A stretch of DNA of 64,000 bases, taken from an uncultured Alphaproteobacteria bacterium. Its GTDB lineage: Bacteria; Pseudomonadota; Alphaproteobacteria; Rhodobacterales; Rhodobacteraceae. Made by a program: the position numbers and the translations under genes. The stretch covers positions 1 to 64,000 of the forward strand of contig CACKFK010000005.1 of the NCBI GenBank assembly GCA_902599445.1, written 5' to 3'. The notes under the pieces are model-generated. The model worked only from the letters and a program-made list of their open reading frames with translations. It was not told the DNA's origin and did no database searches. Positions 6,918-35,263 of the stretch are shown here, piece after piece; within the stretch, counting starts at the first letter, position 1, and every line of letters starts with the position of its first letter.

Positions 6918-7736
6918 ATGAAAGCAGATGTACACTATTTTTCTGATTTGGGCGGTATGCCGCAACCAGATACTTTTAAGTCAGATCGAGCTATTTTTAA
7001 AGAGGCTTATATTTTTATTCCTCGAGGTTGCATAAGGGACATCGTGGTCAGTTTCTTCCCTGGTTGGACTAACACCCGTTCTTGGGTGCTTGCTAAGCCT
7101 CTAACAGGATTTACAGAAACTTTTTCATATTATTTGATGGAATTATCCGAGGGTGGAGGCAGTACAAAACCTGATCCGGACCAATCAGTTGAGTCCATAA
7201 TATTTGTGACTGAAGGTGAATTATCTCTAGAGATTGACAGCCAGAGGGAAATCCTGAGGCCAGGGGGGTATGCTTATATTCCACCAGAAAAAAAATGGTC
7301 AATCAAGAATCAAATTAGTTCGCTTACAAAATTTCATTGGATAAGGAAGGTTTATGAAAAGGATGCTAATGTGGTCATCCCAGATGCTTTCATAATAAAC
7401 GAGCAGTCCGTCGTCCCACAAGAAATGCCTAATGACCCTAGATGGAAGACCACTCGCTTTGTGGAACCTTCTGATTTAAGACATGATATGCATGTTAACA
7501 TTGTATCTTTTGAGCCAGGATCATCTATCCCGTTCCCTGAGACACATGTCATGGAACATGCAATTTACATACTTCAAGGGGTAGGAACTTATTATTTAAA
7601 TGGAGAATGGGTAGATGTTGAAGCAGGAGATTTCATGGCTTTAAGAGCTTTTTGTCCTCAAGCATGTAAAGCACTTGGAGATGAGCCTTTCAGATACCTA
7701 CTATACAAAAATGTAAACCGTCACATAAAGCTTTGA
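6918..7736 (+). CDS. (S)-ureidoglycine aminohydrolase, bicupin
   Basis: Two cupin halves (EGGGSTKPDPDQSVESIIFVTEGEL; MEHAIYILQGVGTYYLNGEWVDVEAGDFMALRAFCPQACKALG) typical of YlbA/AllE/UGHY; adjacent to allA and puuE. Confidence 0.88.
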   Translation: MKADVHYFSDLGGMPQPDTFKSDRAIFKEAYIFIPRGCIRDIVVSFFPGWTNTRSWVLAKPLTGFTETFSYYLMELSEGGGSTKPDPDQSVESIIFVTEGELSLEIDSQREILRPGGYAYIPPEKKWSIKNQISSLTKFHWIRKVYEKDANVVIPDAFIINEQSVVPQEMPNDPRWKTTRFVEPSDLRHDMHVNIVSFEPGSSIPFPETHVMEHAIYILQGVGTYYLNGEWVDVEAGDFMALRAFCPQACKALGDEPFRYLLYKNVNRHIKL

Positions 7737-7738
7737 AC

Positions 7739-8224
7739 TTAGGTTTTTTCTATAAAATACCAGTCCTTATAAGTGTTTGTGTCAAGATTCTTTCCTAAAC
7801 CTATCCAGTCTATGACAACAAAGAGCCCGGGGTTCTCTAGGGGCGCAAGAATTCCATGCCAGACATTTTTATGATAATTCACTCCCTGGCCGGGTTTAGT
7901 GATAAAGACTTCTGGCACCCCTGGTTTACCATTATTATCCTGTGCGGCAACAACTATAAATTTACTGCCGAAAACAGGGATGAATGCCTGACTTCCAAGG
8001 GGATGTTTTTCCATAAAGTTAAATTTGTAAGGCAGACTTATTTTTTTTGATTCAAAAAGGCTAATTCCGGCCTGACCATTGGTGAAGTTGAGATTTGCTA
8101 GATCATTGTAGCGAAGGCACCTACCATCATTTATTTCAAATGGAACCTTCTGGCTGGTGTCAATAATATCTCCATATTTCTGGAAATCTTTTTGTTTAAG
8201 AGTTTTAGGGTTTAGAGGTTTCAT
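7739..8224 (-). CDS. allA: Ureidoglycolate lyase
   Basis: AllA-like, with FMEKHPLGSQAFIPV and KPGQGVNYHKNVWHGILAPL motifs. Confidence 0.9.
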   Translation of the reverse strand: MKPLNPKTLKQKDFQKYGDIIDTSQKVPFEINDGRCLRYNDLANLNFTNGQAGISLFESKKISLPYKFNFMEKHPLGSQAFIPVFGSKFIVVAAQDNNGKPGVPEVFITKPGQGVNYHKNVWHGILAPLENPGLFVVIDWIGLGKNLDTNTYKDWYFIEKT

Positions 8225-8227
8225 TTT

Positions 8228-9643
8228 TTAAAAAAGTTCTTTCAAGCGAAAATAAGCTATCTTTTCCACCTCTCTACATGCCGTCACAAATTCATCAGCT
8301 CTACTATTCTCATATCTAATCTTAAACTGACGAAGTATTTGGGATCTTGTTTTTCCTTTTACAGCAATTATGAACGGATGTTTGAATTTCTCTTTGTACT
8401 GATGGTTAAGTTGATTAAATTCTTTTTGCTGGCGGTCACTAAGGGAGGTTAAACCCGCACCCTTCTGTTCAAGGGTGCTGCTTGTTGTTAGTTTTTCAAC
8501 AAGCTTTTTGTTGTCTAATGCGAGATCAGGATGAGACTTCAACACTTTCAATTTTTCCTTGTCACTTGCCATTCGAAATTCAAAGCACAAAAAGCCATGC
8601 GTAGCTTCAGGAGATTTCATAGATGGGTTTAATCCTCTTGAATAGGCTTTTTCTGCTATCCAAGGGCTGTGCTCAAAAATATTACCAAAAGTACCGATAA
8701 ACTGGCCCTTGGTCATCTTATAGGGATTTATCTTTTTCTCAACAGGAGGATAATATTTTTTCCAATGTTCAGCTATGTCTATTCTCTTGGCATACCAGAC
8801 ATCTTTAAAGCTCTTAGTATATTTAATAAATTCTTTTAAGGCCATTAACCGGCCTGGTCTTCCAGATAAACGACAGTGCAGACCAATATTCATCATTTTA
8901 GGCGATCCTTCGGCTCCTTCTTTGTACAAAACATCAAAAGTACCTTTCAAGTAATCGAAAAACTGGCTCCAGGAATTGAATCCTTGCTGGGTAGCGAACC
9001 TCATGTCATTCGCATCGAGGGTATAGGGGATAATCAATTGAGGGGCCTTTTTTGAAGCTATCCAGTAGGGTAAGTCATCATCATAAGAATCAGATATGTA
9101 TTCGAAGGAACCAGTTTCTGAAGCCAAAGCAACAGTATTCTCTGTTCCTCTCCCGAGGTACCAGCCTTTGGGAGCCAATCCAGTAGCGGCAGTGTGGACT
9201 TTAATTGCTTTTTGCAAGAAACTCCTTTCCTTCTTTTTTGAGAAGTTCTTATATTCAATCCATTTTAAGCCATGTGATGCTATCTCCCATTGCGCCAATT
9301 GCATTGCGTTCACTTGTACAGGTGACTTAGCTAAGGCCGTGGCAACCCCAAAAATGGTTACGGGTATACTTTCTGAAGTAAAAAGTCTGTGTAAGCGCCA
9401 AAAGCCACTCCTAGCTCCATAATCATAAATGCTTTCCATATTAAAATGACGTTTCCCAGGCCATGGTTCTGCTCCAACTATTTCAGAAAGAAACGATTCT
9501 GAAGCAGAATCGCCATGTAAAAGACAATTTTCTCCTCCTTCTTCGTAATTTATGACGAACTGAACAGCAATCTTGGCTCTTTTTGGCCAAACTACTTTGG
9601 GAGAGTTTTGTCCATAACCTAGTAAGTCTCTTGGATACTTCAT
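8228..9643 (-). CDS. puuE: Allantoinase PuuE fused to OHCU decarboxylase (UraD)
   Basis: N-terminal polysaccharide-deacetylase-like allantoinase (YPRDLLGYGQNSPKVVWP, VQFVINYEEGGENCLLHGD); C-terminal OHCU decarboxylase (GNIFEHSPWIAEKA, LKSHPDLA, FIIAVKGKTRSQIL). Confidence 0.93.
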   Translation of the reverse strand: MKYPRDLLGYGQNSPKVVWPKRAKIAVQFVINYEEGGENCLLHGDSASESFLSEIVGAEPWPGKRHFNMESIYDYGARSGFWRLHRLFTSESIPVTIFGVATALAKSPVQVNAMQLAQWEIASHGLKWIEYKNFSKKKERSFLQKAIKVHTAATGLAPKGWYLGRGTENTVALASETGSFEYISDSYDDDLPYWIASKKAPQLIIPYTLDANDMRFATQQGFNSWSQFFDYLKGTFDVLYKEGAEGSPKMMNIGLHCRLSGRPGRLMALKEFIKYTKSFKDVWYAKRIDIAEHWKKYYPPVEKKINPYKMTKGQFIGTFGNIFEHSPWIAEKAYSRGLNPSMKSPEATHGFLCFEFRMASDKEKLKVLKSHPDLALDNKKLVEKLTTSSTLEQKGAGLTSLSDRQQKEFNQLNHQYKEKFKHPFIIAVKGKTRSQILRQFKIRYENSRADEFVTACREVEKIAYFRLKELF

Positions 9644-9735
9644 TATCTTTACTCCAGATCAAATAATGCTTTCATTTAGTTGAATAGGAAATATATTGTA
9701 GGTACAAGCATTTATTTTATTCTAGTGAGGGTGTT

Positions 9736-10095
9736 TTGTCAGGCAGACTAACTACACATGTTTTAGATACTGCAATAGGTTTTCCTGCAGAAGGTATCAA
9801 CATAGAACTATATACTATTAAGCAGGGAGCTAGGAAGTTCATCAAACAATTAACTACAAATTCGGATGGAAGAACCGATGAAATCTTACTAAGTAAGGAA
9901 GAATTTTTTCTAGGAGATTTTGAACTTGTTTTTCATGTTGGCAAATATCTAAGGAATAAATCTAAGAAGATCGATGATCTTCAAGGTTTGCTCTATGACT
10001 TAGTCCCAGTGAAGTTTACGATTTTTTCTCATAGAAACTATCATATACCTTTACTCTTGTCGCCCTTCGGCTATTCAACCTATCTTGGAAGTTAA
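9736..10095 (+). CDS. uraH: 5-hydroxyisourate hydrolase
   Basis: LTTHVLDTAIGFPAEG, NSDGRTDE and YHIPLLLSPFGYSTYLGS; TTG start. Confidence 0.9.
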   Translation: MSGRLTTHVLDTAIGFPAEGINIELYTIKQGARKFIKQLTTNSDGRTDEILLSKEEFFLGDFELVFHVGKYLRNKSKKIDDLQGLLYDLVPVKFTIFSHRNYHIPLLLSPFGYSTYLGS

Positions 10096-10125
10096 TCTTA
10101 ACTATTGGAGCCTTGGTGATCTCAC

Positions 10126-11355
10126 ATGATTTCTGTCATCATAATGGACTGGATTGAATTTGCTGTTCGCTGGCTTCATAGTATTACGGCAATAGCATGG
10201 ATTGGAACGTCTTTTTACTTTATTGCCCTCGATTTAGGCTTAAAGAAACACCAAGCTTTGCCTAATGGTGTAACAGGCGAAGAATGGCAGGTTCACGGAG
10301 GTGGTTTTTATCATATTCAAAAATATGGTATAGCTCCACCCAATTTACCGAAGGATTTGATATGGTTTAAATGGGAAAGCTATGCGACCTGGTTGTCAGG
10401 CTTTGCGCTTTTGGCAATAGTTTATTACGGAGGCGCAGATCTTTATCTCGTAGATCATGAAGTTGCTGAAATAACTAATAGTGTAGCAATAGCTTTGTCA
10501 ATTGGCTCACTTGGACTTGGTTGGGTGTTGTATAATCTTCTTTGTAAATCTAAGCTGGGAAACAATAGTACTTTATTATTGTTGATCCTTTTTTGCTGTT
10601 TATTTTTCTTATCCTGGTTTTATACATCAATATTTAGTGGTAGGGCAGCTTTCCTTCATTTAGGAGCTTTTACTGCAACGATAATGACCGCTAATGTCTT
10701 TTTCATTATTATTCCTAATCAGAAAATAGTTGTTGCTGATTTAAAAGGGGGAAAGGTCCCTGATCCAATGTATGGGGTCATTGCAAAGCAGAGATCAACA
10801 CACAACAATTATCTTACACTTCCAGTCATCTTTTTTATGCTCTCCAATCATTACCCTCTTGCATTTGCCGCTGAATTAAATTGGGCAATAGCCCCACTTG
10901 TTTTTTTGCTGGGAGTTTCAATCCGCCATTTTTTTAACACATACCATTCGCAGGGTAGAAAACTTTATTGGACATGGGCTTTGAGTTTTTTAATTTTCTT
11001 AATCATTATTGGCCTTTCTGCTTTCAGATCCCCGAACTTAGATCTGGTAAAGAATGAAGAAGACATTCTTAATATAGAATTTGGCAATGCAGTAGGCTTG
11101 CCCGAAGAAGTGTTTGATGTGGTTTCCGCAAGGTGCTCAATGTGTCACTCAAGAGAGCCTTTGTGGGATGGGTTCATTCATCCGCCAAAGGGGTTTATTG
11201 TTGAAAATGAATATGACATCATTAAACAGGCAAGGGCAATTTATATATATTCAGGCATAAGTAGAGCAATGCCTCCCAATAATATTTCATACATGGAAGA
11301 TGCAGAAAGATTAATGATACAAGCTTGGTTTGAAAATATAGAAAAAGAAAATTAA
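10126..11355 (+). CDS. puuD: Urate hydroxylase PuuD, membrane-bound with C-terminal cytochrome c domain
   Basis: WLHSITAIAWIGTSFYFIALD membrane domain; CSMCH heme motif near C-terminus; ureide neighbourhood. Confidence 0.92.
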   Translation: MISVIIMDWIEFAVRWLHSITAIAWIGTSFYFIALDLGLKKHQALPNGVTGEEWQVHGGGFYHIQKYGIAPPNLPKDLIWFKWESYATWLSGFALLAIVYYGGADLYLVDHEVAEITNSVAIALSIGSLGLGWVLYNLLCKSKLGNNSTLLLLILFCCLFFLSWFYTSIFSGRAAFLHLGAFTATIMTANVFFIIIPNQKIVVADLKGGKVPDPMYGVIAKQRSTHNNYLTLPVIFFMLSNHYPLAFAAELNWAIAPLVFLLGVSIRHFFNTYHSQGRKLYWTWALSFLIFLIIIGLSAFRSPNLDLVKNEEDILNIEFGNAVGLPEEVFDVVSARCSMCHSREPLWDGFIHPPKGFIVENEYDIIKQARAIYIYSGISRAMPPNNISYMEDAERLMIQAWFENIEKEN

Positions 11356-21976: not shown

Positions 21977-24865
21977 ATGTTAAAGAGAAGGACTAAAGAG
22001 ATAGCGAACGGCTCTCGAAGATCGTCTTTATTTGGACAAGTAGGGTCAAAAAAAGTTAACCGGCGTGGTTTTTTGAAAGGTTCGGGGATAGCAGTTGGAG
22101 GTTTAACTGCTTTTACTTTTGCAGGTGGGAGTGTGACACCAGCGGCAGCTTCAGCCGTAGACGCTAACATGTCTGTTATGAAAAGTGTTTGCACCCACTG
22201 TTCGGTGGGCTGTACTGTTCTCGCCGAGGTGAGAAATGGCGTTTGGGTTGGGCAGGAGCCTGGATGGGACAGTCCATTTAACCTTGGTGCTCATTGTGCT
22301 AAAGGGGCTGCAGTTAGAGAGAATGCTCACGGTGAGAGACGGCTCAAGTATCCCATGAAATTAGTTGGTGGTGAGTGGACAAAGGTTTCTTGGGAGACTG
22401 CTATCGATGAAATTGGCGATAAGATGCTCCAAATCCGAGATGAAAGTGGGCCAGACAGTGTGTATTGGCTGGGTTCAGCAAAAACTAACAATGAACAATC
22501 ATATCTGTATAGAAAATTTGCTGCTTATTGGGGCACTAATAATGTCGACCACCAAGCACGTATTTGTCACTCCACGACAGTTGCTGGAGTTGCCAATACT
22601 TGGGGTTACGGCGCTATGACAAATTCTTATAATGATATCCATAAGTCGAATGCGATTTTCTTGATTGGTGGAAATCCGGCAGAGGCTCATCCAGTTTCTC
22701 TTATGCATATTTTAAAAGCCAAGGAACAGAATAATGCACCCTTAATAGTGTGTGATCCAAGATTTACAAGAACGGCCGCACATGCCGATGAATATGTTAG
22801 GTTCCGACCAGGAACAGACGTTGCTTTAATTTGGGGAATTTTATGGCATATCTTTGAAAACGGGTGGGAAGATAAGGAATTTATAAGAACTCGCGTGTGG
22901 GGTATGGATCAAATCAAGGAAGAAGTAGCTAGGTGGAATCCTAAAGAGACAGAGAGAGTGACTGGGGTTCCTGGATCGCAGCTTGAGCGAGTTGCGAGGA
23001 CTATGGCCAATAATAGACCTGGTACTTTTATTTGGTGTATGGGTGGAACCCAACACACAAATGGAAATAATAATACCAGGGCATATTGTGTATTTCAGTT
23101 AGCCCTTGGGAATATGGGTACTACAGGTGGTGGAACAAATATTTTCAGAGGTCACGACAATGTTCAGGGTGCTACAGATCTAGGTGTCCTAGCTAATACA
23201 TTACCAGGTTATTACGGTTTAAAGCCTGGCTCCTGGGCTCATTGGGCTAGAGTATGGGAAGAAGATCTTGATTGGCTAAAAGGCCGTTTTGGAAAGATGA
23301 AGAAAAAAGATGGCAAAGATCGTCTCATGATGAATGAAAAGGGAATTCCCGTGAGCCGGTGGATAGATGGTGTTTTAGAATCAAAAGATCATTTAGTTCA
23401 ACCTGATAACACACGTGCAATGGTCTTTTGGGGACATGCTCCAAATTCTCAAACCAGATTGGTTGAGATGAAGGACGCTATGGAAAAACTCGATCTTCTG
23501 GTGGTTGTGGATCCTTTTCCAACAGTCTCGGCGGTTTTGCATGATAGGAAGGAAGGAGCATATTTGCTTCCGTCTACAACCCAGTTTGAGACATATGGTT
23601 CAATAACGGCTTCCAATAGGTCAATCCAGTGGAGAGAGAAGGTAATGGAGCCTATGTTCGAAAGTAAGCCAGACCACACTATTATGGCACTATTTGCTAA
23701 GAAATTTGGTTTTGCAGATAGATTTTTCCGAAATATAGAGTTGAATGGAGACGAGCCAAAAATAGAAGATATAACTGGGGAAATAAACAGAGGAATGTGG
23801 ACAATTGGTTATACTGGGCAATCTCCAGAGAGATTAAAGCTTCATATGGCTAACCAACATACTTTCGATCGTACGACCTTACAAGCGATTGGCGGTCCTG
23901 CAGATGGAGACTTCTACGGGATGCCTTGGCCCAGCTGGGGTAATCCAGAAATGAACCATCCTGGTACGCCAAATCTGTACGATATGAGCAAACCGGTTTC
24001 TAAAGGAGGACTGACATTTAGAGCAAGATTTGGGGTTGAGCGCGATGGTGATAATCTTCTTGCTGAGGGGGTTTACTCTGCTGGTTCTGAGATTAAGGAT
24101 GGCTATCCAGAATTTACGATGCAGATGTTGATGGATCTTGGTTGGGATAAAGATCTAACGGCAGATGAGCGTAAGGCCATTGATGCGGTAGCCGGACCTA
24201 AGACAAATTGGAAAACTGATTTATCTGGGGGCATACAGAGGGTCGCCATAAAACACGAGTGCGCCCCATTCGGAAATGCGAAGGCTCGGGCAGTGGTTTG
24301 GACTTTCCCAGATCCTATCCCAATCCATAGAGAGCCTTTGTATACGCCAAGAAGAGACCTTGTTGCTGATTATCCAACCTATGCTGATAAGGTTTTCTGG
24401 CGTTTGCCAACAATGTATGCCTCAATTCAGAAAAAAGATTTTTCTAAGGACTACCCGATGATTCTAACGTCAGGCCGGTTGGTCGAGTACGAGGGTGGTG
24501 GCGATGAAACTCGATCCAACCCTTGGTTGGCTGAATTACAGCAGGACATGTTTGTGGAAATTAATCCGAGAGATGCCAATGATCTCGGGATTAGGAACGG
24601 AGCCGACGTCTGGGTGGAAGGGGCCGAAGGTGCAAAGGTTCTGGTGAAGGCAATGATTACCAACAGGGTTGGAACCGGGGTAGCGTTTATGCCATTCCAC
24701 TTTGGAGGTCATTTCCAGGGGAAGGATTTAAGATCAAAATATCCTAAAGGCGCAGATCCAATTGTCTTAGGAGAATCAAGTAATACTGCTCAAACATATG
24801 GCTACGACTCGGTTACCCAAATGCAGGAGACCAAGGCTACGCTATGTAAAATAATGCCAGCTTAA
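21977..24865 (+). CDS. Formate dehydrogenase major subunit, molybdopterin/tungstopterin type, Cys variant
   Basis: Tat signal RRGFLKGSG; CTHCSVGC cluster motif; ARICHSTTV active-site context with Cys codon, no in-frame TGA. Confidence 0.95.
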   Translation: MLKRRTKEIANGSRRSSLFGQVGSKKVNRRGFLKGSGIAVGGLTAFTFAGGSVTPAAASAVDANMSVMKSVCTHCSVGCTVLAEVRNGVWVGQEPGWDSPFNLGAHCAKGAAVRENAHGERRLKYPMKLVGGEWTKVSWETAIDEIGDKMLQIRDESGPDSVYWLGSAKTNNEQSYLYRKFAAYWGTNNVDHQARICHSTTVAGVANTWGYGAMTNSYNDIHKSNAIFLIGGNPAEAHPVSLMHILKAKEQNNAPLIVCDPRFTRTAAHADEYVRFRPGTDVALIWGILWHIFENGWEDKEFIRTRVWGMDQIKEEVARWNPKETERVTGVPGSQLERVARTMANNRPGTFIWCMGGTQHTNGNNNTRAYCVFQLALGNMGTTGGGTNIFRGHDNVQGATDLGVLANTLPGYYGLKPGSWAHWARVWEEDLDWLKGRFGKMKKKDGKDRLMMNEKGIPVSRWIDGVLESKDHLVQPDNTRAMVFWGHAPNSQTRLVEMKDAMEKLDLLVVVDPFPTVSAVLHDRKEGAYLLPSTTQFETYGSITASNRSIQWREKVMEPMFESKPDHTIMALFAKKFGFADRFFRNIELNGDEPKIEDITGEINRGMWTIGYTGQSPERLKLHMANQHTFDRTTLQAIGGPADGDFYGMPWPSWGNPEMNHPGTPNLYDMSKPVSKGGLTFRARFGVERDGDNLLAEGVYSAGSEIKDGYPEFTMQMLMDLGWDKDLTADERKAIDAVAGPKTNWKTDLSGGIQRVAIKHECAPFGNAKARAVVWTFPDPIPIHREPLYTPRRDLVADYPTYADKVFWRLPTMYASIQKKDFSKDYPMILTSGRLVEYEGGGDETRSNPWLAELQQDMFVEINPRDANDLGIRNGADVWVEGAEGAKVLVKAMITNRVGTGVAFMPFHFGGHFQGKDLRSKYPKGADPIVLGESSNTAQTYGYDSVTQMQETKATLCKIMPA

Positions 24866-24881
24866 GAAGGAGGGATAAAAA

Positions 24882-25490
24882 ATGTCACTTGGTGGAAATG
24901 CCCGAGCAAGATTTTTATGTGATGCAGAGCGTTGCATAGAATGTAACGCATGTGTTACGGCATGCAAAAATGAAAATGAAGTACCTTGGGGTATAAATAG
25001 ACGCCGTGTAGTCACAATCAATGATGGATCTCCAGGTGAAAGATCCATATCTGTGGCATGTATGCATTGTTCTGATGCTCCTTGTATGGCTGTGTGCCCT
25101 GTTGATTGCTTCTATCAATCTGCAGATGGGATTGTCCTCCATTCTAAGGATCTTTGCATTGGTTGTGGATATTGTTTCTATGCATGTCCATTTGGAGCCC
25201 CGCAGTTCCCACAAGCTGGTAACTTTGGGTCAAGAGGAAAAATGGATAAATGTACTTTTTGCGCAGGTGGTCCGGAAGATGATATGTCAGAATCTGAGTT
25301 TCAAAAATATGGAAGAAATAGGGTGTCCGAAGGAAAACTTCCAGTGTGTGCAGAAATGTGTGCAACAAAAGCTCTGTTAGCGGGTGATGCTGATGATGTG
25401 TCGGCAGTCTATAGAGAGCGCGTGGTTGCCAGAGGCTTTGGATCAGGTGCTTGGGGCTGGGGTACTGCTTACGATCAGAAAGGAACCTAA
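24882..25490 (+). CDS. Formate dehydrogenase iron-sulfur subunit
   Basis: CIECNACVTACKNENEVPWG, CMHCSDAPCMAVCPVDC, CIGCGYCFYACPFGAPQFP and CTFC. Confidence 0.95.
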   Translation: MSLGGNARARFLCDAERCIECNACVTACKNENEVPWGINRRRVVTINDGSPGERSISVACMHCSDAPCMAVCPVDCFYQSADGIVLHSKDLCIGCGYCFYACPFGAPQFPQAGNFGSRGKMDKCTFCAGGPEDDMSESEFQKYGRNRVSEGKLPVCAEMCATKALLAGDADDVSAVYRERVVARGFGSGAWGWGTAYDQKGT

Positions 25491-25509
25491 GTCCAATTAA
25501 CTTGTTAGG

Positions 25510-25543
25510 TGGCGGGCAGATATGGTTTGCCCGCCATTTTTTT
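25510..25543 (+). terminator. Rho-independent terminator-like hairpin between FDH beta and gamma genes
   Basis: TGGCGGGCA, short loop, TGCCCGCCA, then TTTTTTT. Confidence 0.8.
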
Positions 25544-25583
25544 ATATTAGATTTGTTATCAAATGTGTTAAAATGGAGCAGTT

Positions 25584-26804
25584 ATGATTAGGCTTTTTTA
25601 TGTTGTATCCCTAATGTTCATGCTAGTGGGGGCCGGTTATTCAGAAGACGGAATCGTTATAAATAATAATTCTAGAGCTGAAACTGGTGGGGCCCAAACG
25701 CTTGAAGATATTCTGGCTAGGCAGCGAGGTGAAGAAGTCAATTATAACTTTAGGAAAAACGCTACAGGGCAGCAGGGGGTCGATTCTGACACTATAAGCC
25801 CTCTTGGAAGTATGGGATTAGCTTCTGATTCTGAGATTTTTCGACAGTTAAGGTATAATAAGGCTGATATAAATGTTTCGAGTAAGTCGGCTGCTTCAGA
25901 AATCCTAGTGCAGGATTCTGGAATGAGCTGGTTAAATTTAAGGGAGGGCCCTCTTCAAAAATACGGAGGCCTGAGTCTTATCGGAATGATTGGCTTATTA
26001 GCCTTTTTTTTCCTGGTCAGGGGGAGAATACCTGTTGAGGGTGGATTGTCAGGATTAACTATCGAAAGGTTCAAACCTATTGAGCGATTTGCACATTGGC
26101 TTTTGGCATCTTCATTTATTCTACTCGGTCTCACCGGTTTACTTACTCTTTTTGGACGTAATTATTTGATTCCAGTGCTTGGGCATGAAACTTTCTCCGT
26201 CTTGGCTTTAGGTTCCAAGTGGATTCACAACAATGTTTCCTGGGCCTTTATGGCAAGTCTGGCAGTGATTTTCGTTTTTTGGGTTGTACATAATATCCCC
26301 ACAAGGCTCGACGTGAAATGGATTTTAAAAGGAGGTGGTATGTTTTCTTCCCATTCCCACCCATCTGCGAAAAAGTTTAATGCGGGCCAGAAAATAATTT
26401 TTTGGGTTGTGATATTGCTTGGGACTTCTGTTTCGGCGTCGGGTTTGTCGTTACTATTTCCTTTTGAGTTCCCAATGTTTGCAGCAACTTTCGCAAAATT
26501 GAATTCCTTAGGTATCCCAAGCTTACTGGGAATGGAAAATTTGCCGACAAATCTTTTGCCACATGAAGAAATGCAGTTATCTCAAGTTTGGCATACGATT
26601 GTTGCTTTTATTATGATGGTTGTTATCATCGCTCATATTTATATTGGATCAGTTGGGATGGTTGGGGCTTACGATGCTATGGGTTCAGGGCAGGTGGATG
26701 TTAATTGGGCCAAGCAGCACCATGATCTTTGGGAGGAAGAGATGAGTGAGAAGACGCCAAAAACTGGTAAAAAATCTACTGAGGCAATCACACCTGCTGA
26801 GTGA
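25584..26804 (+). CDS. Formate dehydrogenase cytochrome b subunit (gamma)
   Basis: Signal peptide and TM helices; FKPIERFAHWLLASSFILLGLTG; GTSVSASGLSLLFPF; QVWHTIVAFIMMVVIIAHIYIGSVG. Confidence 0.93.
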   Translation: MIRLFYVVSLMFMLVGAGYSEDGIVINNNSRAETGGAQTLEDILARQRGEEVNYNFRKNATGQQGVDSDTISPLGSMGLASDSEIFRQLRYNKADINVSSKSAASEILVQDSGMSWLNLREGPLQKYGGLSLIGMIGLLAFFFLVRGRIPVEGGLSGLTIERFKPIERFAHWLLASSFILLGLTGLLTLFGRNYLIPVLGHETFSVLALGSKWIHNNVSWAFMASLAVIFVFWVVHNIPTRLDVKWILKGGGMFSSHSHPSAKKFNAGQKIIFWVVILLGTSVSASGLSLLFPFEFPMFAATFAKLNSLGIPSLLGMENLPTNLLPHEEMQLSQVWHTIVAFIMMVVIIAHIYIGSVGMVGAYDAMGSGQVDVNWAKQHHDLWEEEMSEKTPKTGKKSTEAITPAE

Positions 26805-29935: not shown

Positions 29936-31093
29936 TTGAATCTAAATCTTCTTCAAACTTTGAATGACTTTCGACAAAAAGCAAAAAAGAAATTACCTAA
30001 GATGGTTTTTGGCTACATAGACGGGGGAGCTGGAGATGGTCTAGCTGTGGATCGAAACAGGGAATCTTTTAAGAGAATTCTCTTGCAGCCAAGATCACTG
30101 GAGAATGTTTCTCAAAGGAACCAAACTAAAAATCTTTTGGGCAAACAGTGGCAACATGTTTTTGGGATTGCTCCGATGGGGTTATGTAATGTCGCCAATC
30201 CAAAGGCTGATATGATGTTAGCGCATTCAGCTAACAAGTATAACATTCCTTTATGTGTTTCCACGGCAGCATCGACGACCATGGAAAAAATGTATGAGAT
30301 TGCTGGGGATAATATCTGGTTTCAATTGTATATGGGTAATTCAAAAGAGGGAACTTTTAAACTCGTAAAAAGAGCGAACGAATTAGGAATCAAAAATTTG
30401 ATTCTCTCTGTTGATGTACCAGCACCGGGTTATAGACCAAGTGAAATTAGGACTGGGTTCAAAGCTCCATTTAAGTTTGGGCTTCAGCAAATATTAGATT
30501 GTGCGAGCCATCCTTCTTGGTCGATTCCGTATTTATTTAGTGGTATGCCCGACTTTGCTCATAATTATGGTTTATCTGGCAATGGTACCCCATTCTTTGA
30601 TAGATATTCAGGAACAAGGTTAATTGCGGATTTGGACTTTCTCAAGTCTCTTAGAGACCAATGGAAAGGAAATCTTTTTGTCAAAGGGATTACATTTGTT
30701 GAGGATGCCCACGAATCAATCAATTGTGGTTGTAATGGTATTTATGTTTCCAATCATGGGGGGAGGCAGTTGGAAAGTGTTCCTGCAGCTTTAGATCTCT
30801 TAAAGCTGATTAGAGAAGAACTTAGTCCACAAATTCCAATTTTGTTTGATAGCGGTTTGAGATCGGGAGAAGATATCATAAAAGCATTGGCCTTGGGGGC
30901 AGATTTTGTGTTTTTGGGAAGGCCTTTTCTCTTTGCTAGTGCTTTAGGCAGTAGGCAGGCAATCATGCATTTAATTGAAATATTGAACAAACAGATTGAC
31001 TCTGTTATGGCACAATTAGGATGCACTTCTCTAGAAAATTTGAGTAATACCGTAATATATGGTGTGGATAGAAGTAAAAAAATGGTGGGATAA
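29936..31093 (+). CDS. FMN-dependent alpha-hydroxy acid oxidase/dehydrogenase (LldD/GOX family)
   Basis: MVFGYIDGGAGD, APMGLCN and IYVSNHGGRQLESVPAALD motifs; TTG start. Confidence 0.92.
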   Translation: MNLNLLQTLNDFRQKAKKKLPKMVFGYIDGGAGDGLAVDRNRESFKRILLQPRSLENVSQRNQTKNLLGKQWQHVFGIAPMGLCNVANPKADMMLAHSANKYNIPLCVSTAASTTMEKMYEIAGDNIWFQLYMGNSKEGTFKLVKRANELGIKNLILSVDVPAPGYRPSEIRTGFKAPFKFGLQQILDCASHPSWSIPYLFSGMPDFAHNYGLSGNGTPFFDRYSGTRLIADLDFLKSLRDQWKGNLFVKGITFVEDAHESINCGCNGIYVSNHGGRQLESVPAALDLLKLIREELSPQIPILFDSGLRSGEDIIKALALGADFVFLGRPFLFASALGSRQAIMHLIEILNKQIDSVMAQLGCTSLENLSNTVIYGVDRSKKMVG

Positions 31094-31095
31094 GT

Positions 31096-32826
31096 ATGGT
31101 TCGTGGTGGGCACATATTAGCTAAGGCTATTCATGACAAAAACATAAAGCATGTTTTTACTTTAGCAGGAGGGTTTTGTAATCCTGCCCTTGAAGGATTG
31201 AAAAATTGTCAAATTCCAGTGGTTAATTGCCCTCACGAACAAATTGCTGGTCATTTAGCTGACGGTCATACTAGAATTACAAGAGACCCTACTGTTTGCT
31301 TAGTTGGCCCAGAAGGGTTCTCTAATGCTTTACCTGCAATGATGGAAGCATGGGGAGAAAGATCACCTGTAATTTTTATAACAGGTTCCTCAACATTTAA
31401 AAGAAAAGGAGCTGGTGGTTTTAAGGAAATTGATGATGTGGCCATGGCTGCACCCATCACAAAATATAGTTTTTCTGTTACCGATGGTACTAGGATCAGA
31501 GAGTTTGTTGACAGGGCATATAAAATTGCAGTGTCTGGTTATCCCGGTCCAGTACATCTAAGTATTCCCGTTGATATTATGTTCAGTTCATACCCTGATA
31601 ATATCGCTGAAATAGAGCGCCCTTTTCAACAATCATTAGTGTCTATCCCAAGAGCTTGGCCAGATCCGGAGGCAGTAACTAAGATAATTGAAGTTATATC
31701 TAAATCAAAGAGACCAATTTTAATAGCTGGCCACGGAGTTTGGTGGTCCAAGTCAGAAAAAAAATTAGCAACTTGTGCAAAAGAAATGGGAATTCCCATT
31801 TTCAATATACCTTATCATCAAAAACTTTTGAGGCAGAACCATAAGGAAATGATGGGGTTAGCTGATATTCACCAATATCATCCATCTAAATGGGCTTTGA
31901 GTAATTGCGACTGTGTCATAATGGTAGGAGCAAGGCTAGATAACCAGATGAATTTTGGTAACCCACCGTTGTTTCCAAAAACGTTAGAATTAATTTGTGT
32001 GAATGGGTCAGATGAGGAGATTCAAATGAATCGGGCCGCAGATCATCTATTGTTAAGTCATCCTGGAGCTTTCTTTGACGAGTTGTCAAAATTTAAGAAT
32101 AGTCTGAACGCGAATTTTGAATCAAATTGGTTAAATAAGCATTTGGAACTGAGAGAACACTGGGTTGAAGAAACTTTGCGAGATTTAGAAAGAAAGACCT
32201 CAGAGACTTCTTGGAATGGGACAGAAGTGCATCCTTTGCAATTAGCAATCGATGTAATTGAATCAATGGAAAGCGGAAACCATTTAGTTTTTGATGGTGG
32301 GAATACTCATTTTTGGTCAGAAATTGCTGCGAATGTGGTTGCCCAAAAAGGTAAGAATCTAGCCACAATAATGCACCCAGGATCATTTAGTTTATTAGGT
32401 TTGGGGGTGTCATTTGCGGTATCTTTAAAAAGGATCCATCCGAAAGATACCGTTGTTTTGATTAGTGGAGATGGTGCATTTCTATCGGGAGGACTGTCAA
32501 TAGAACTAGCCTTTCAGGAACAGCTACCCATTGTTGTCATTGTTGATAATAATGGTGGGCTGGATTGTATTTCTCAACAACAAGAAAGGATGTTTCAAAG
32601 TGGGTCCCACTTTGCAACCGATTTTAGGGATATCCCATTCCATGAAATGTTCAAGGGTCTTGGAGGATATGGAGAACTTGTGACTGAACGATCAGAGATA
32701 AAATCCGCAGTAGAAAGAGCTATTAATAGCAATAGGACAGCTTGCATAAATGTTAAAACTCGTGGACAGATTAGCCCAATTGTTGCGGCCACTTCTGATA
32801 AGCGGGATAAATCGTCAATTGAGTAA
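31096..32826 (+). CDS. Thiamine diphosphate-dependent enzyme (acetolactate synthase/2-hydroxyacyl-CoA lyase superfamily)
   Basis: Catalytic Glu context CPHEQIAGHLADGHTRI; ThDP motif GDGAFLSGGLSIELAFQEQLPIVVIVDNN. Confidence 0.92.
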   Translation: MVRGGHILAKAIHDKNIKHVFTLAGGFCNPALEGLKNCQIPVVNCPHEQIAGHLADGHTRITRDPTVCLVGPEGFSNALPAMMEAWGERSPVIFITGSSTFKRKGAGGFKEIDDVAMAAPITKYSFSVTDGTRIREFVDRAYKIAVSGYPGPVHLSIPVDIMFSSYPDNIAEIERPFQQSLVSIPRAWPDPEAVTKIIEVISKSKRPILIAGHGVWWSKSEKKLATCAKEMGIPIFNIPYHQKLLRQNHKEMMGLADIHQYHPSKWALSNCDCVIMVGARLDNQMNFGNPPLFPKTLELICVNGSDEEIQMNRAADHLLLSHPGAFFDELSKFKNSLNANFESNWLNKHLELREHWVEETLRDLERKTSETSWNGTEVHPLQLAIDVIESMESGNHLVFDGGNTHFWSEIAANVVAQKGKNLATIMHPGSFSLLGLGVSFAVSLKRIHPKDTVVLISGDGAFLSGGLSIELAFQEQLPIVVIVDNNGGLDCISQQQERMFQSGSHFATDFRDIPFHEMFKGLGGYGELVTERSEIKSAVERAINSNRTACINVKTRGQISPIVAATSDKRDKSSIE

Positions 32827-32829
32827 ATA

Positions 32830-33189
32830 ATGGCAAGGTTCAGTACACATATTTTAAGCTCCCTAGATGGGACTCACTTGTCAGATATAGTGGTTTTACT
32901 GATTGAAATATCAAGAGCAGGTGAAAGACGAACAATAATGCAGGAAAGAACAGATAAAGGCGGGCGTATTAATACTGAATTTAAACCAAATGTGAGTGAA
33001 GGGTTTGAACATGAAGTTATTATTTCAATTCCTGAGTCATTTGGTGGTTTAGATCATTGGCCTAAATTGAGAAAAAATACCGAATTCTCTTCTATTTCTG
33101 TGAAGGTGAAAATTGAAAACAAGGATGGTAGTTATCACATGCCATTCATATTATCGCCCTATGGATTTTCTGGTTGGATCTCTAGGTAA
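32830..33189 (+). CDS. Divergent transthyretin-like/HIUase-like protein
   Basis: FSTHILSSLDGTHLSD, TDKGGRINTEF and YHMPFILSPYGFSGWISR; terminal YRGS motif not conserved. Confidence 0.8.
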   Translation: MARFSTHILSSLDGTHLSDIVVLLIEISRAGERRTIMQERTDKGGRINTEFKPNVSEGFEHEVIISIPESFGGLDHWPKLRKNTEFSSISVKVKIENKDGSYHMPFILSPYGFSGWISR

Positions 33190-33203
33190 CTGAGGAATCT
33201 GGT

Positions 33204-34349
33204 TTGATTGCTGATTTACAAATGTCTAGAAGGATAAGAAGAACCCATTTTACATCGTGTGTGGAAGAATTGGGTGTTTCAGGGTTTACGGTAGTGAATC
33301 ATACTCTACTACCAAAATCCTTTTCAAACAGTGTTGAAGAAGATTTCTATCATTTGAGAAATGATGTTCAAATATGGGATGTAGGTTGCCAAAGACAAGT
33401 GGAAATAGAGGGACCTGATGCTATGTCATTAGTTCAAATGATGACACCTAGAAATATTGCTAATGCTCAAGTGGGACAGTGCTTATATCTAGCTTTGACG
33501 ACGGATAAAGGTAAAATCATCAACGATCCAGTAATGTTGAAGTTGAGTGATGAAAAAATTTGGCTTTCCATTGCTGACTCTGATATATTTTTATGGGCTA
33601 AAGCCTTAGCTATAGGTCTGGGTTTGAAGGTGACAGTTAAAGAACCTGATGTTTCACCCCTGGCTGTTCAGGGGCCGGCGGCAAAAGATTTGATGGTTGA
33701 AATATTTGGTAAACAAGTAGAAGAATTAGGCTTTTTTCGATTTAAATCTCTGGATTTCGAGTCCACTAAACAGATAGTTGCTCGGTCGGGTTATTCTAGT
33801 CAGAATGGCTATGAGATTTATTTAGATAATCGTGACCTGGGAAAAAATTTGTGGGATGCCATCTGGGCTGGAGGGGAAAAGTATAATATAAGACCAGGGG
33901 CCCCCAATTTGATTGACCGAATTGAAGCAGGGTTGATTTCTTTTGGTAATGACATGACTAGCGAAAATACCCCACTTGAATGCGGTATGGAAAAATACTG
34001 TTCATTAACTGATAATATAGATTTTCTAGGTAAAGAATATTTGATTGAAGAAAAAAGGACAGGATCAAGAAGACAAATTCGAGGGGTAATATTTTCTGGT
34101 AAATCACAAGGCCCCTGTACGGTGCCATGGCAATTATATGATGGCAGTACAAATGTTGGCCAGATAACTTCTGGAATTTTTAACCCTAGTTTAGGGGTCA
34201 ATACTGGAATAGCCTTAATTGAGAAGGGACATTGGAATCTTGGGCAAAGAATAAATGTAGTAATTGGGAAAGGTGACATTAGACGAGGGCAAGTTTGTTT
34301 TCTCCCTTTTACTGTTCCAGAGAATCGTGAAATAATGATGAGCTTATAG
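33204..34349 (+). CDS. GcvT-family aminomethyltransferase, DmdA (DMSP demethylase)-like
   Basis: TVVNHTLLPKSF, DVQIWDVGCQRQVEIEGPDA, VSPLAVQGP, FRFKSLDF and LISFGNDMTSENTPLECGM match my recollection of DmdA clades; isofunction unproven. Confidence 0.75.
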   Translation: MIADLQMSRRIRRTHFTSCVEELGVSGFTVVNHTLLPKSFSNSVEEDFYHLRNDVQIWDVGCQRQVEIEGPDAMSLVQMMTPRNIANAQVGQCLYLALTTDKGKIINDPVMLKLSDEKIWLSIADSDIFLWAKALAIGLGLKVTVKEPDVSPLAVQGPAAKDLMVEIFGKQVEELGFFRFKSLDFESTKQIVARSGYSSQNGYEIYLDNRDLGKNLWDAIWAGGEKYNIRPGAPNLIDRIEAGLISFGNDMTSENTPLECGMEKYCSLTDNIDFLGKEYLIEEKRTGSRRQIRGVIFSGKSQGPCTVPWQLYDGSTNVGQITSGIFNPSLGVNTGIALIEKGHWNLGQRINVVIGKGDIRRGQVCFLPFTVPENREIMMSL

Positions 34350-34363
34350 ATTTGATCGGGATA

Positions 34364-35263
34364 ATGGTGATGGTAAAAGAAATAGAGTTGGCTAAAGGTA
34401 AACTCACTGACGATTTATCTGAGCAGTATAAATCAGATGGATATTTATTTCCAGTAGAAGTCTTTTCCAGAAAGCAAGCGGAGACGTTTCGTAAAGAATT
34501 AGAGACAATAGAGGATAGATTTGCATCGGTTAATAAACTACCCAAACCTTTGAACTCATATAAGAGAGGTCCCGCCAATGCTGTAATTCCATTGGTTGCC
34601 GATATTGCCAAGGATAAGAGGGTGCTCGACGTTGTTGAAGGTATATTAGGAAAAAACATTTTAATTTGGGCGGCTGAATTTTTTATTAAGGAAACAAAAA
34701 GTAAACACTTTGTTGGCATGCACCAGGATCTCACTTACTGGGGCATGGGAGAAACATCTGGGCAAGTTACTGCATGGATAGCTCTAAGCCCATCAAGGAA
34801 GAAATCCGGTTGCATGGAGTTTGTGAGAGGATCGCATAAAAACCAAATTTTTCCTCATGAGGACACTTTTTCTGGGGATAGTTTGTTATCTAGAGGACAA
34901 GAAATTAAGGTAGATATCCCTAGAGATAAAAAGATATTTGCTGAATTAGACCCAGGACAAATGTCTCTTCACCATGGTTTAATGATTCATGGTTCTGGTC
35001 CTAATTTCTCTGATGATAGGCGAATTGGTATTGCCATAAGGTACATAAACCCAGATGTAATACAGCAAACATCAGGAAAATCGTATGCCATGCTTGCCCG
35101 CGGAGTTGATAGAAAAGGTAATTTTATCCATTACCCAGCACCTTCAAGATTATTTAGTGAAGAATCTCTGCAGTTGCACAAAGAAATTTGTGAGAGCCAA
35201 CATCAAGTTTTGATGGGAACAGCCAAACAAGAGGGTTCAGTTTGGTCAAAGTCAACAGCATGA
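34364..35263 (+). CDS. Phytanoyl-CoA dioxygenase (PhyH) family Fe(II)/2-oxoglutarate oxygenase
   Basis: HQDLTYWGM (HxD) and LHHGLMIHGSGPNFSDDRRIGIAIRY. Confidence 0.88.
   Translation: MVMVKEIELAKGKLTDDLSEQYKSDGYLFPVEVFSRKQAETFRKELETIEDRFASVNKLPKPLNSYKRGPANAVIPLVADIAKDKRVLDVVEGILGKNILIWAAEFFIKETKSKHFVGMHQDLTYWGMGETSGQVTAWIALSPSRKKSGCMEFVRGSHKNQIFPHEDTFSGDSLLSRGQEIKVDIPRDKKIFAELDPGQMSLHHGLMIHGSGPNFSDDRRIGIAIRYINPDVIQQTSGKSYAMLARGVDRKGNFIHYPAPSRLFSEESLQLHKEICESQHQVLMGTAKQEGSVWSKSTA

Follow-up and report, generated by a model that had tools for sequence, protein, structure and literature searches.

A conserved gene core that joins a ThDP enzyme to an HIUase-like hydrolase and a DmdA paralog in planktonic bacteria, with a candidate role in the catabolism of a methylated metabolite

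The 64,000-nucleotide stretch of DNA analyzed here (the window; positions 1 to 64,000 of contig CACKFK010000005.1, assembly GCA_902599445.1) comes from an uncultured alphaproteobacterium of the family Rhodobacteraceae and carries near its middle five intact open reading frames, all on the plus strand and separated by gaps of 2, 3, 14, and 2 nt (Table 1). They encode a flavin mononucleotide (FMN)-dependent 2-hydroxyacid oxidase (HAO), a thiamine diphosphate (ThDP) enzyme, an HIUase-like protein (TTL), a DmdA-like folate-dependent protein, and a PhyH oxygenase. The original prediction, made from the letters alone, had named these five families and described five tightly packed genes on one strand; the packing is as described, and the Pfam and NCBIfam profile scores bear out all five assignments. 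No terminator-like site lies between the five genes, the single match falling inside the DmdA-like gene. In comparisons with the sister locus L015, dN ranges from 0.09 to 0.25 and dS from 1.1 to 1.8; because dN is well under dS, all five genes are under purifying selection. From the co-directional packing, we predict that the five genes form a genuine operon.

Table 1 Positions of the operon genes and of other features in the window
Feature	Position	Strand	Size and profile matches
HAO, FMN-dependent 2-hydroxyacid oxidase/dehydrogenase (mandelate/lactate dehydrogenase-like)	29936-31093	+	385 aa; PF01070
ThDP enzyme, acetolactate synthase/HACL superfamily, new orthologous group; predicted C-C cleavage or decarboxylation	31096-32826	+	576 aa; TPP enzyme N/M/C
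TTL, HIUase-like hydrolase paralog without C-terminal YRGS	32830-33189	+	119 aa; PF00576
DmdA-like folate-dependent methyltransferase (demethylase), sister clade to DMSP demethylase	33204-34349	+	381 aa; GCV_T, PRK12486
PhyH Fe(II)/2-oxoglutarate oxygenase, accessory	34352-35263	+	303 aa; PF05721
Formate dehydrogenase alpha, beta, and gamma genes, upstream of the operon	21977-26804	+	NCBIfam matches
Urate-to-glyoxylate cluster: cupin protein, ureidoglycolate lyase, OHCU decarboxylase fused to a polysaccharide-deacetylase-type (allantoinase-like) domain, true HIUase, membrane-type urate oxidase	6918-11355		
True HIUase of the urate cluster	9748-10089		C-terminus YLGS

Contigs of the GTDB were scanned with the ThDP protein alone as the query, and the best 80 of 528 relatives (64 to 85% identity) were kept as loci without any selection on neighboring genes; counts per locus are limited to loci where the neighbor position was testable. 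The TTL gene lies directly downstream of the ThDP gene at all 78 testable loci, mostly after a gap of 2 to 4 nt, the DmdA-like gene comes next at 76 of 77, and the HAO gene lies upstream at 59 of 77. Because the neighbors were not selected for, this linkage goes beyond chance. A PhyH gene is found near only 9 of the 80 loci, confined to the window genus and SAR116, and the broadly conserved unit therefore consists of four genes, not five. The order of these four core genes is the same in SAR11 and SAR116, in further marine alphaproteobacteria, and in some bacteria of freshwater type. The adjacency, whose restriction to this one genome had been named beforehand as grounds for abandoning the operon hypothesis, is thus found far outside it, and the five-family neighborhood that was to be sought recurs across lineages as the four-gene core, with PhyH as the part that does not. 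The demethylase-like and ring-hydrolase-like proteins, which had been set apart as the odd ones out, in fact accompany the ThDP enzyme invariantly.

According to record titles, the hosts belong to Rhodobacteraceae/Paracoccaceae, Pelagibacteraceae (SAR11), SAR116, Hyphomicrobiales, and Pelagibius (L032, of the Pelagibius sp. Alg239-R121 lineage). The further labels Methylocystis, Rhodoferax, Comamonadaceae, Granulosicoccaceae, and Flavobacteriales rest on the binning of metagenome-assembled genomes (MAGs), some of which are binned as Burkholderiales; the locus titled Flavobacteriales (L020) closely resembles the window-genus locus L017 and was probably misbinned. Carriers include pond, lake, and other non-marine MAGs, as well as two single-contig genomes that are 100% complete (G610 and G764). 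In a census of genome samples (E ≤ 1e−150), an ortholog of the ThDP protein was detected in 2 of 398 genomes of the phylum, 6 of 385 of the class, 13 of 298 of the family, and 66 of 162 of the marine order of genome G562, which indicates that it is rare overall and common in certain plankton. None was found on plasmid records. Its distribution is patchy in the window genus: of 12 genomes, most of them incomplete, 6 gave a TTL match with a strong E-value.

The ThDP protein scores 223.8 bits against 2-hydroxyacyl-CoA lyase (HACL; NCBIfam NF058623, cutoff 600) and 225.8 bits against acetolactate synthase (TIGR00118, cutoff 538), and it is also below the cutoff for OXC. Its best matches in the Protein Data Bank (PDB) are HACL/OXC-type enzymes (174 bits); benzoylformate decarboxylase is absent from the PDB matches listed, and cyclohexanedione hydrolase is not close to it there. 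Glu48 is invariant in 80 of 80 sequences, and its presence speaks against an identity as glyoxylate carboligase, an enzyme not known to have the ThDP glutamate. Equally invariant is Lys110 (motif FKE), at a position where the HACL/OXC/acetolactate synthase group has an active-site Gln, as does the aligned HACL/OXC-type enzyme 8vzc; in acetohydroxyacid synthase, this Gln takes part in catalysis. The correspondence of the position to Q128, the residue named for AcHACL (PMC8760513), is presumptive.

These properties bear on a parallel with alpha-oxidation drawn in the original prediction, according to which PhyH would 2-hydroxylate an acyl-CoA, the ThDP enzyme would act as HACL, and HAO would oxidize hydroxyacids. 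The superfamily memberships agree with such a scheme, as do the enzymes that the ThDP protein matches best in the PDB, but the shortfall against the HACL model, the Gln-to-Lys replacement, the absence of PhyH from most loci, the constancy of TTL and the DmdA-like protein rather than PhyH as partners, and the lack of a CoA ligase or other CoA-activating gene in the core all argue against it. We find the parallel unsupported and the scheme highly unlikely.

HAO matches PF01070 (FMN_dh) with 368 bits, is below the curated subfamily cutoffs (lactate dehydrogenase/oxidase, MftD), and has (S)-mandelate dehydrogenase 6bfg as its best ordinary PDB match. Its catalytic residues His274, Arg277, Tyr132, Asp160, and Lys250 are invariant in 61 of 61 sequences, and this conservation in a mandelate dehydrogenase-like protein points to a 2-hydroxyacid oxidation step.

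TTL scores 46.5 bits against PF00576 (Transthyretin/HIUase) and 52.4 bits against the NCBIfam HIUase model (TIGR02962), below its cutoff of 87.45, and the folds closest to its AlphaFold2 model (pLDDT 89) are those of HIUase. Because H7, R46, and H103, which match the catalytic His/Arg/His of HIUase, are retained in 69 of 69 TTL sequences, we propose that TTL carries out a hydrolysis. An additional His16 is also invariant in all 69, while the C-terminal YRGS of HIUase gives way to a W-x-S-type tail. We reject a role in purine degradation because a second, true HIUase was present in 12 of 12 carrier genomes tested and because, in the window, the urate pathway lies 20 kb away. TmuH of caffeine degradation may be a further counterpart of TTL.

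PhyH scores 94 bits against PF05721, its closest solved relative is 6zyk, and the HxD...H iron triad (H124, D126, H213) is invariant in seven sequences. In four sister species (G002, G003, G005, and G006), a HutF gene scoring over the cutoff follows PhyH after 20 to 100 nt, and HutI was not found in G002 and G006. At the sister-species loci L139:4765-6126 and L140:6712-8076, the HutF-family gene stands directly after PhyH and shares only 46% identity with the HutF that is linked to hut genes in this genus. The window has, in the place of HutF, an FkbM methyltransferase gene together with a glycan-type segment of low GC content (36-38 kb, GC 0.31), and its own HutF is unlinked to the operon.

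The retained HIUase residues and the HutF neighbors raise the possibility that the substrate is an N-methylated nitrogen heterocycle (imidazole-, imidazolone-, or hydantoin-like), whose ring TTL would open by lactam cleavage, as HIUase does, before HutF or an enzyme of the agmatinase family handled the formimino or amidino product and formate was released. Agmatinase-family genes adjoining the core at L037, L210, and L211, the HutF genes in genomes that seem to lack HutI, and the formate dehydrogenase genes upstream in the window all fit this route. However, most loci have neither HutF nor agmatinase genes, HutF is unlinked in the window genome itself, G005 has HutU, HutH, HutI, and HutG elsewhere and may need the PhyH-adjacent HutF for histidine, and the core offers no ring-oxidizing step. 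On balance, we regard the heterocycle as an unlikely substrate.

The DmdA-like protein scores 491 bits against the NCBIfam DmdA model (PRK12486), above the cutoff of 410, matches GCV_T as well, and retains the NDP and ADSD motifs; LigM and DesA profiles score weakly on it. The DmdA-like proteins form their own clade (support 98/94), outside the clade that holds the Pelagibacter DmdA 3TFH and sister to it. Because the sister clade includes a proven tetrahydrofolate (THF)-dependent demethylase, a folate-linked demethylation seems probable. The Trp that contacts dimethylsulfoniopropionate (DMSP) in DmdA is named W171 in PMC7487153 and corresponds to Trp197 of 3TFH in our own mapping, which is based on residue spacing; at this position, the 77 DmdA-like proteins have Tyr (75) or Phe (2) and never Trp. 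Since a neighboring sox-linked clade mixes Tyr and Trp, the loss of Trp is by itself weak evidence. Other members of the family occur as well: G562 holds a separate DmdA with 68% identity to 3TFH, and further DmdA homologs are encoded in the window genome. In two window-genus genomes, another DmdA-family paralog ends a sox-like (thiosulfate oxidation) cluster (L142:9394-10506 and L143:6647-7759), whose sox genes were recognized by eye. Most SAR11 copies of the core have upstream a second, divergent gene of the GcvT/trimethylamine N-oxide demethylase-like type (for example, L034:4113-5348), which shares about 29% identity with the DmdA-like gene of the core.

Several classes of neighbors recur around the core; the clusters of homocysteine methyltransferases, formate-THF ligases, TRAP, and CocE were named by eye, with a partial profile check, and one further cluster (c48) has no Pfam match, its initial reading as MetF not being confirmed. 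The formate dehydrogenase genes upstream of the operon have the same arrangement in the sister species and are possibly the end of a one-carbon branch. MED-G56-type loci hold FolD, a 558-aa formate-THF-ligase-like protein, and a formate dehydrogenase-sized gene (judged by eye and length), and both a PurU-like formyl transferase and homocysteine methyltransferases recur near the core. The recurrence of these genes suggests that a one-carbon unit is transferred to folate. Roughly one locus in two has an SBP5-type ABC transporter of the opine/glutathione type, whose nearest sequence relatives are YliB (GsiB) and further binders of heme, peptides, or opines; its binding protein lies, for example, at L034:2474-3961 in SAR11, with a homolog at L132. 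An S51 hydrolase, for which no PDB match by sequence was found, lies near 38 loci; the recurrent transporter and hydrolase are in line with an imported compound. Ldh_2 and PanE-type dehydrogenases also recur, in line with 2-hydroxyacid/2-oxoacid chemistry, as do FAH-type hydrolases.

Genes of quaternary-amine metabolism form another class. Carnitine 3-dehydrogenase (730 bits, cutoff 592) and BKACE lie downstream at 14 loci of one Rhodobacteraceae type and at L021/L037, MttB occurs near nine loci of several lineages, and a GbcA-like Rieske protein is found at three SAR116 loci. Genomes G012, G610, and G764 have 4 to 7 MttB genes in 2.6 to 4.4 Mb, one of them less than 10 kb from the core in each; because G610 and G764 share one family, the MttB linkage amounts to two independent cases, plus Pelagibius and Rhizobiaceae. 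Two MttB-superfamily genes near the module (L132:4683-6227 and L211:3892-5220) are divergent, scoring about 390 bits where most of the remaining MttB genes in these genomes reach at least 700, and no corrinoid protein was recognized beside them. Because carnitine dehydrogenase/BKACE, MttB, and GbcA-like genes recur in unrelated carriers, we suspect a substrate of the quaternary-amine class.

A relative of DMSP, such as 4-dimethylsulfonio-2-hydroxybutyrate, would be another onium substrate: the DmdA-like protein would demethylate it, HAO would yield the 2-oxoacid, and the ThDP enzyme would decarboxylate this product, or IlvE would convert it to methionine. While the sister relationship to DMSP demethylase, the suitability of HAO and the ThDP enzyme for a 2-hydroxyacid, and the IlvE gene that adjoins the core in many SAR11 loci are consistent with this route, it leaves TTL without a role, and the freshwater-type carriers, the conserved neighborhood without sulfur genes, and the recurrent quaternary-amine neighbors make it improbable. 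We think still less of a carbocycle that bears an activated enol methyl ether (mycosporine/gadusol type) and would undergo O-demethylation, ThDP-dependent ring cleavage as in inositol-type dione hydrolases, and hydrolysis. GcvT-family O-demethylases exist (LigM and DesA, with weak scores here), the transporter and the S51 hydrolase would suit amino-acid conjugates, and the hosts are aquatic, the remainder of the case being chemical reasoning; however, there are no iol-type or aromatic ring genes, the ThDP enzyme is not close to cyclohexanedione hydrolase among the PDB matches listed, and the carnitine and MttB neighbors would go unexplained, so that we judge this substrate very unlikely.

Judged by sequence, the core genes are linked, their products belong to orthologous groups distinct from their namesakes, and the residues for FMN-dependent 2-hydroxyacid oxidation, ThDP catalysis, and HIUase-type hydrolysis are kept. 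Given the order and linkage conserved across lineages, we tentatively propose, with a confidence somewhat short of even, that the operon encodes a conserved module with which the cell degrades a small methylated metabolite after importing it, this metabolite being most likely of the quaternary-ammonium (or sulfonium) type and bearing a 2-hydroxyacid. The DmdA-like protein would move one activated methyl group onto THF, and the one-carbon unit would be oxidized via the folate pathway to formate and CO2. HAO, or in some clades perhaps another dehydrogenase, would turn the 2-hydroxyacid into a 2-oxoacid, as mandelate dehydrogenase does, and the ThDP enzyme would cleave or decarboxylate next to the 2-oxoacid carbonyl. 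Because the ThDP and TTL genes are never separated, the two enzymes may be argued to act in consecutive steps, with TTL acting on what the ThDP enzyme produces and hydrolyzing an amide, lactam, or lactone bond there. In the window genus, PhyH probably adds a hydroxyl group and thereby admits a further substrate. Both the order of the steps and the identity of the substrate are our inference. Three observations weigh against this proposal: the quaternary-amine genes are lineage-specific neighbors, none of them present at every locus; HAO is missing at 18 of 77 loci; and an HIUase-type hydrolase is no obvious step of any known betaine pathway. The methylated, possibly cyclic, marine metabolite envisaged in the original prediction fits the folate one-carbon and formate genes in being methylated and is possibly cyclic, while the pond and lake MAGs make "marine" too narrow.

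No description of this gene set was found in the open-licence literature, which does not prove its absence elsewhere. We see an even balance for and against the view that an undescribed pathway is at hand. In it, a ThDP enzyme and an HIUase-like hydrolase, obligately paired, would work with a non-DMSP DmdA paralog, and abundant plankton, SAR11 and SAR116 among them, would use it to consume a common methylated metabolite; its genes could be miscounted as dmdA, HIUase, and acetolactate synthase. Some of the bacteria that carry the module rank among the most abundant in the ocean; if it handles such a metabolite, organic carbon, nitrogen, and one-carbon units would flow through it along a route not yet on record. 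Because the NCBIfam DmdA model accepts this separate-clade paralog, dmdA surveys could overcount DMSP demethylation. The linked binding protein makes the substrate directly testable.

Four known systems resemble parts of the module. TTL shares with HIUase the fold and the His/Arg/His catalytic residues but differs in its extra His16, its lack of YRGS, and its lack of linkage to urate genes. As in DMSP demethylation, a member of the GcvT/DmdA family is accompanied by one-carbon folate genes, whereas the DmdA-like protein of the module belongs to a separate clade without the contact Trp and its partner genes are unrelated to DmdBCD. The adjacent FMN 2-hydroxyacid dehydrogenase and ThDP enzyme recall MdlB-MdlC of the mandelate pathway; however, the ThDP enzyme of the module is of the acetolactate synthase/HACL type and not a benzoylformate decarboxylase, and TTL and the DmdA-like protein have no counterpart there. 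Finally, we know of no quaternary-amine pathway that employs ThDP, HIUase-like, and DmdA-like enzymes, and we found none in the open-licence literature; genes of aerobic quaternary-amine catabolism, for carnitine via dehydrogenase and BKACE and for MttB- and GbcA-type demethylation, recur beside the module in several lineages.

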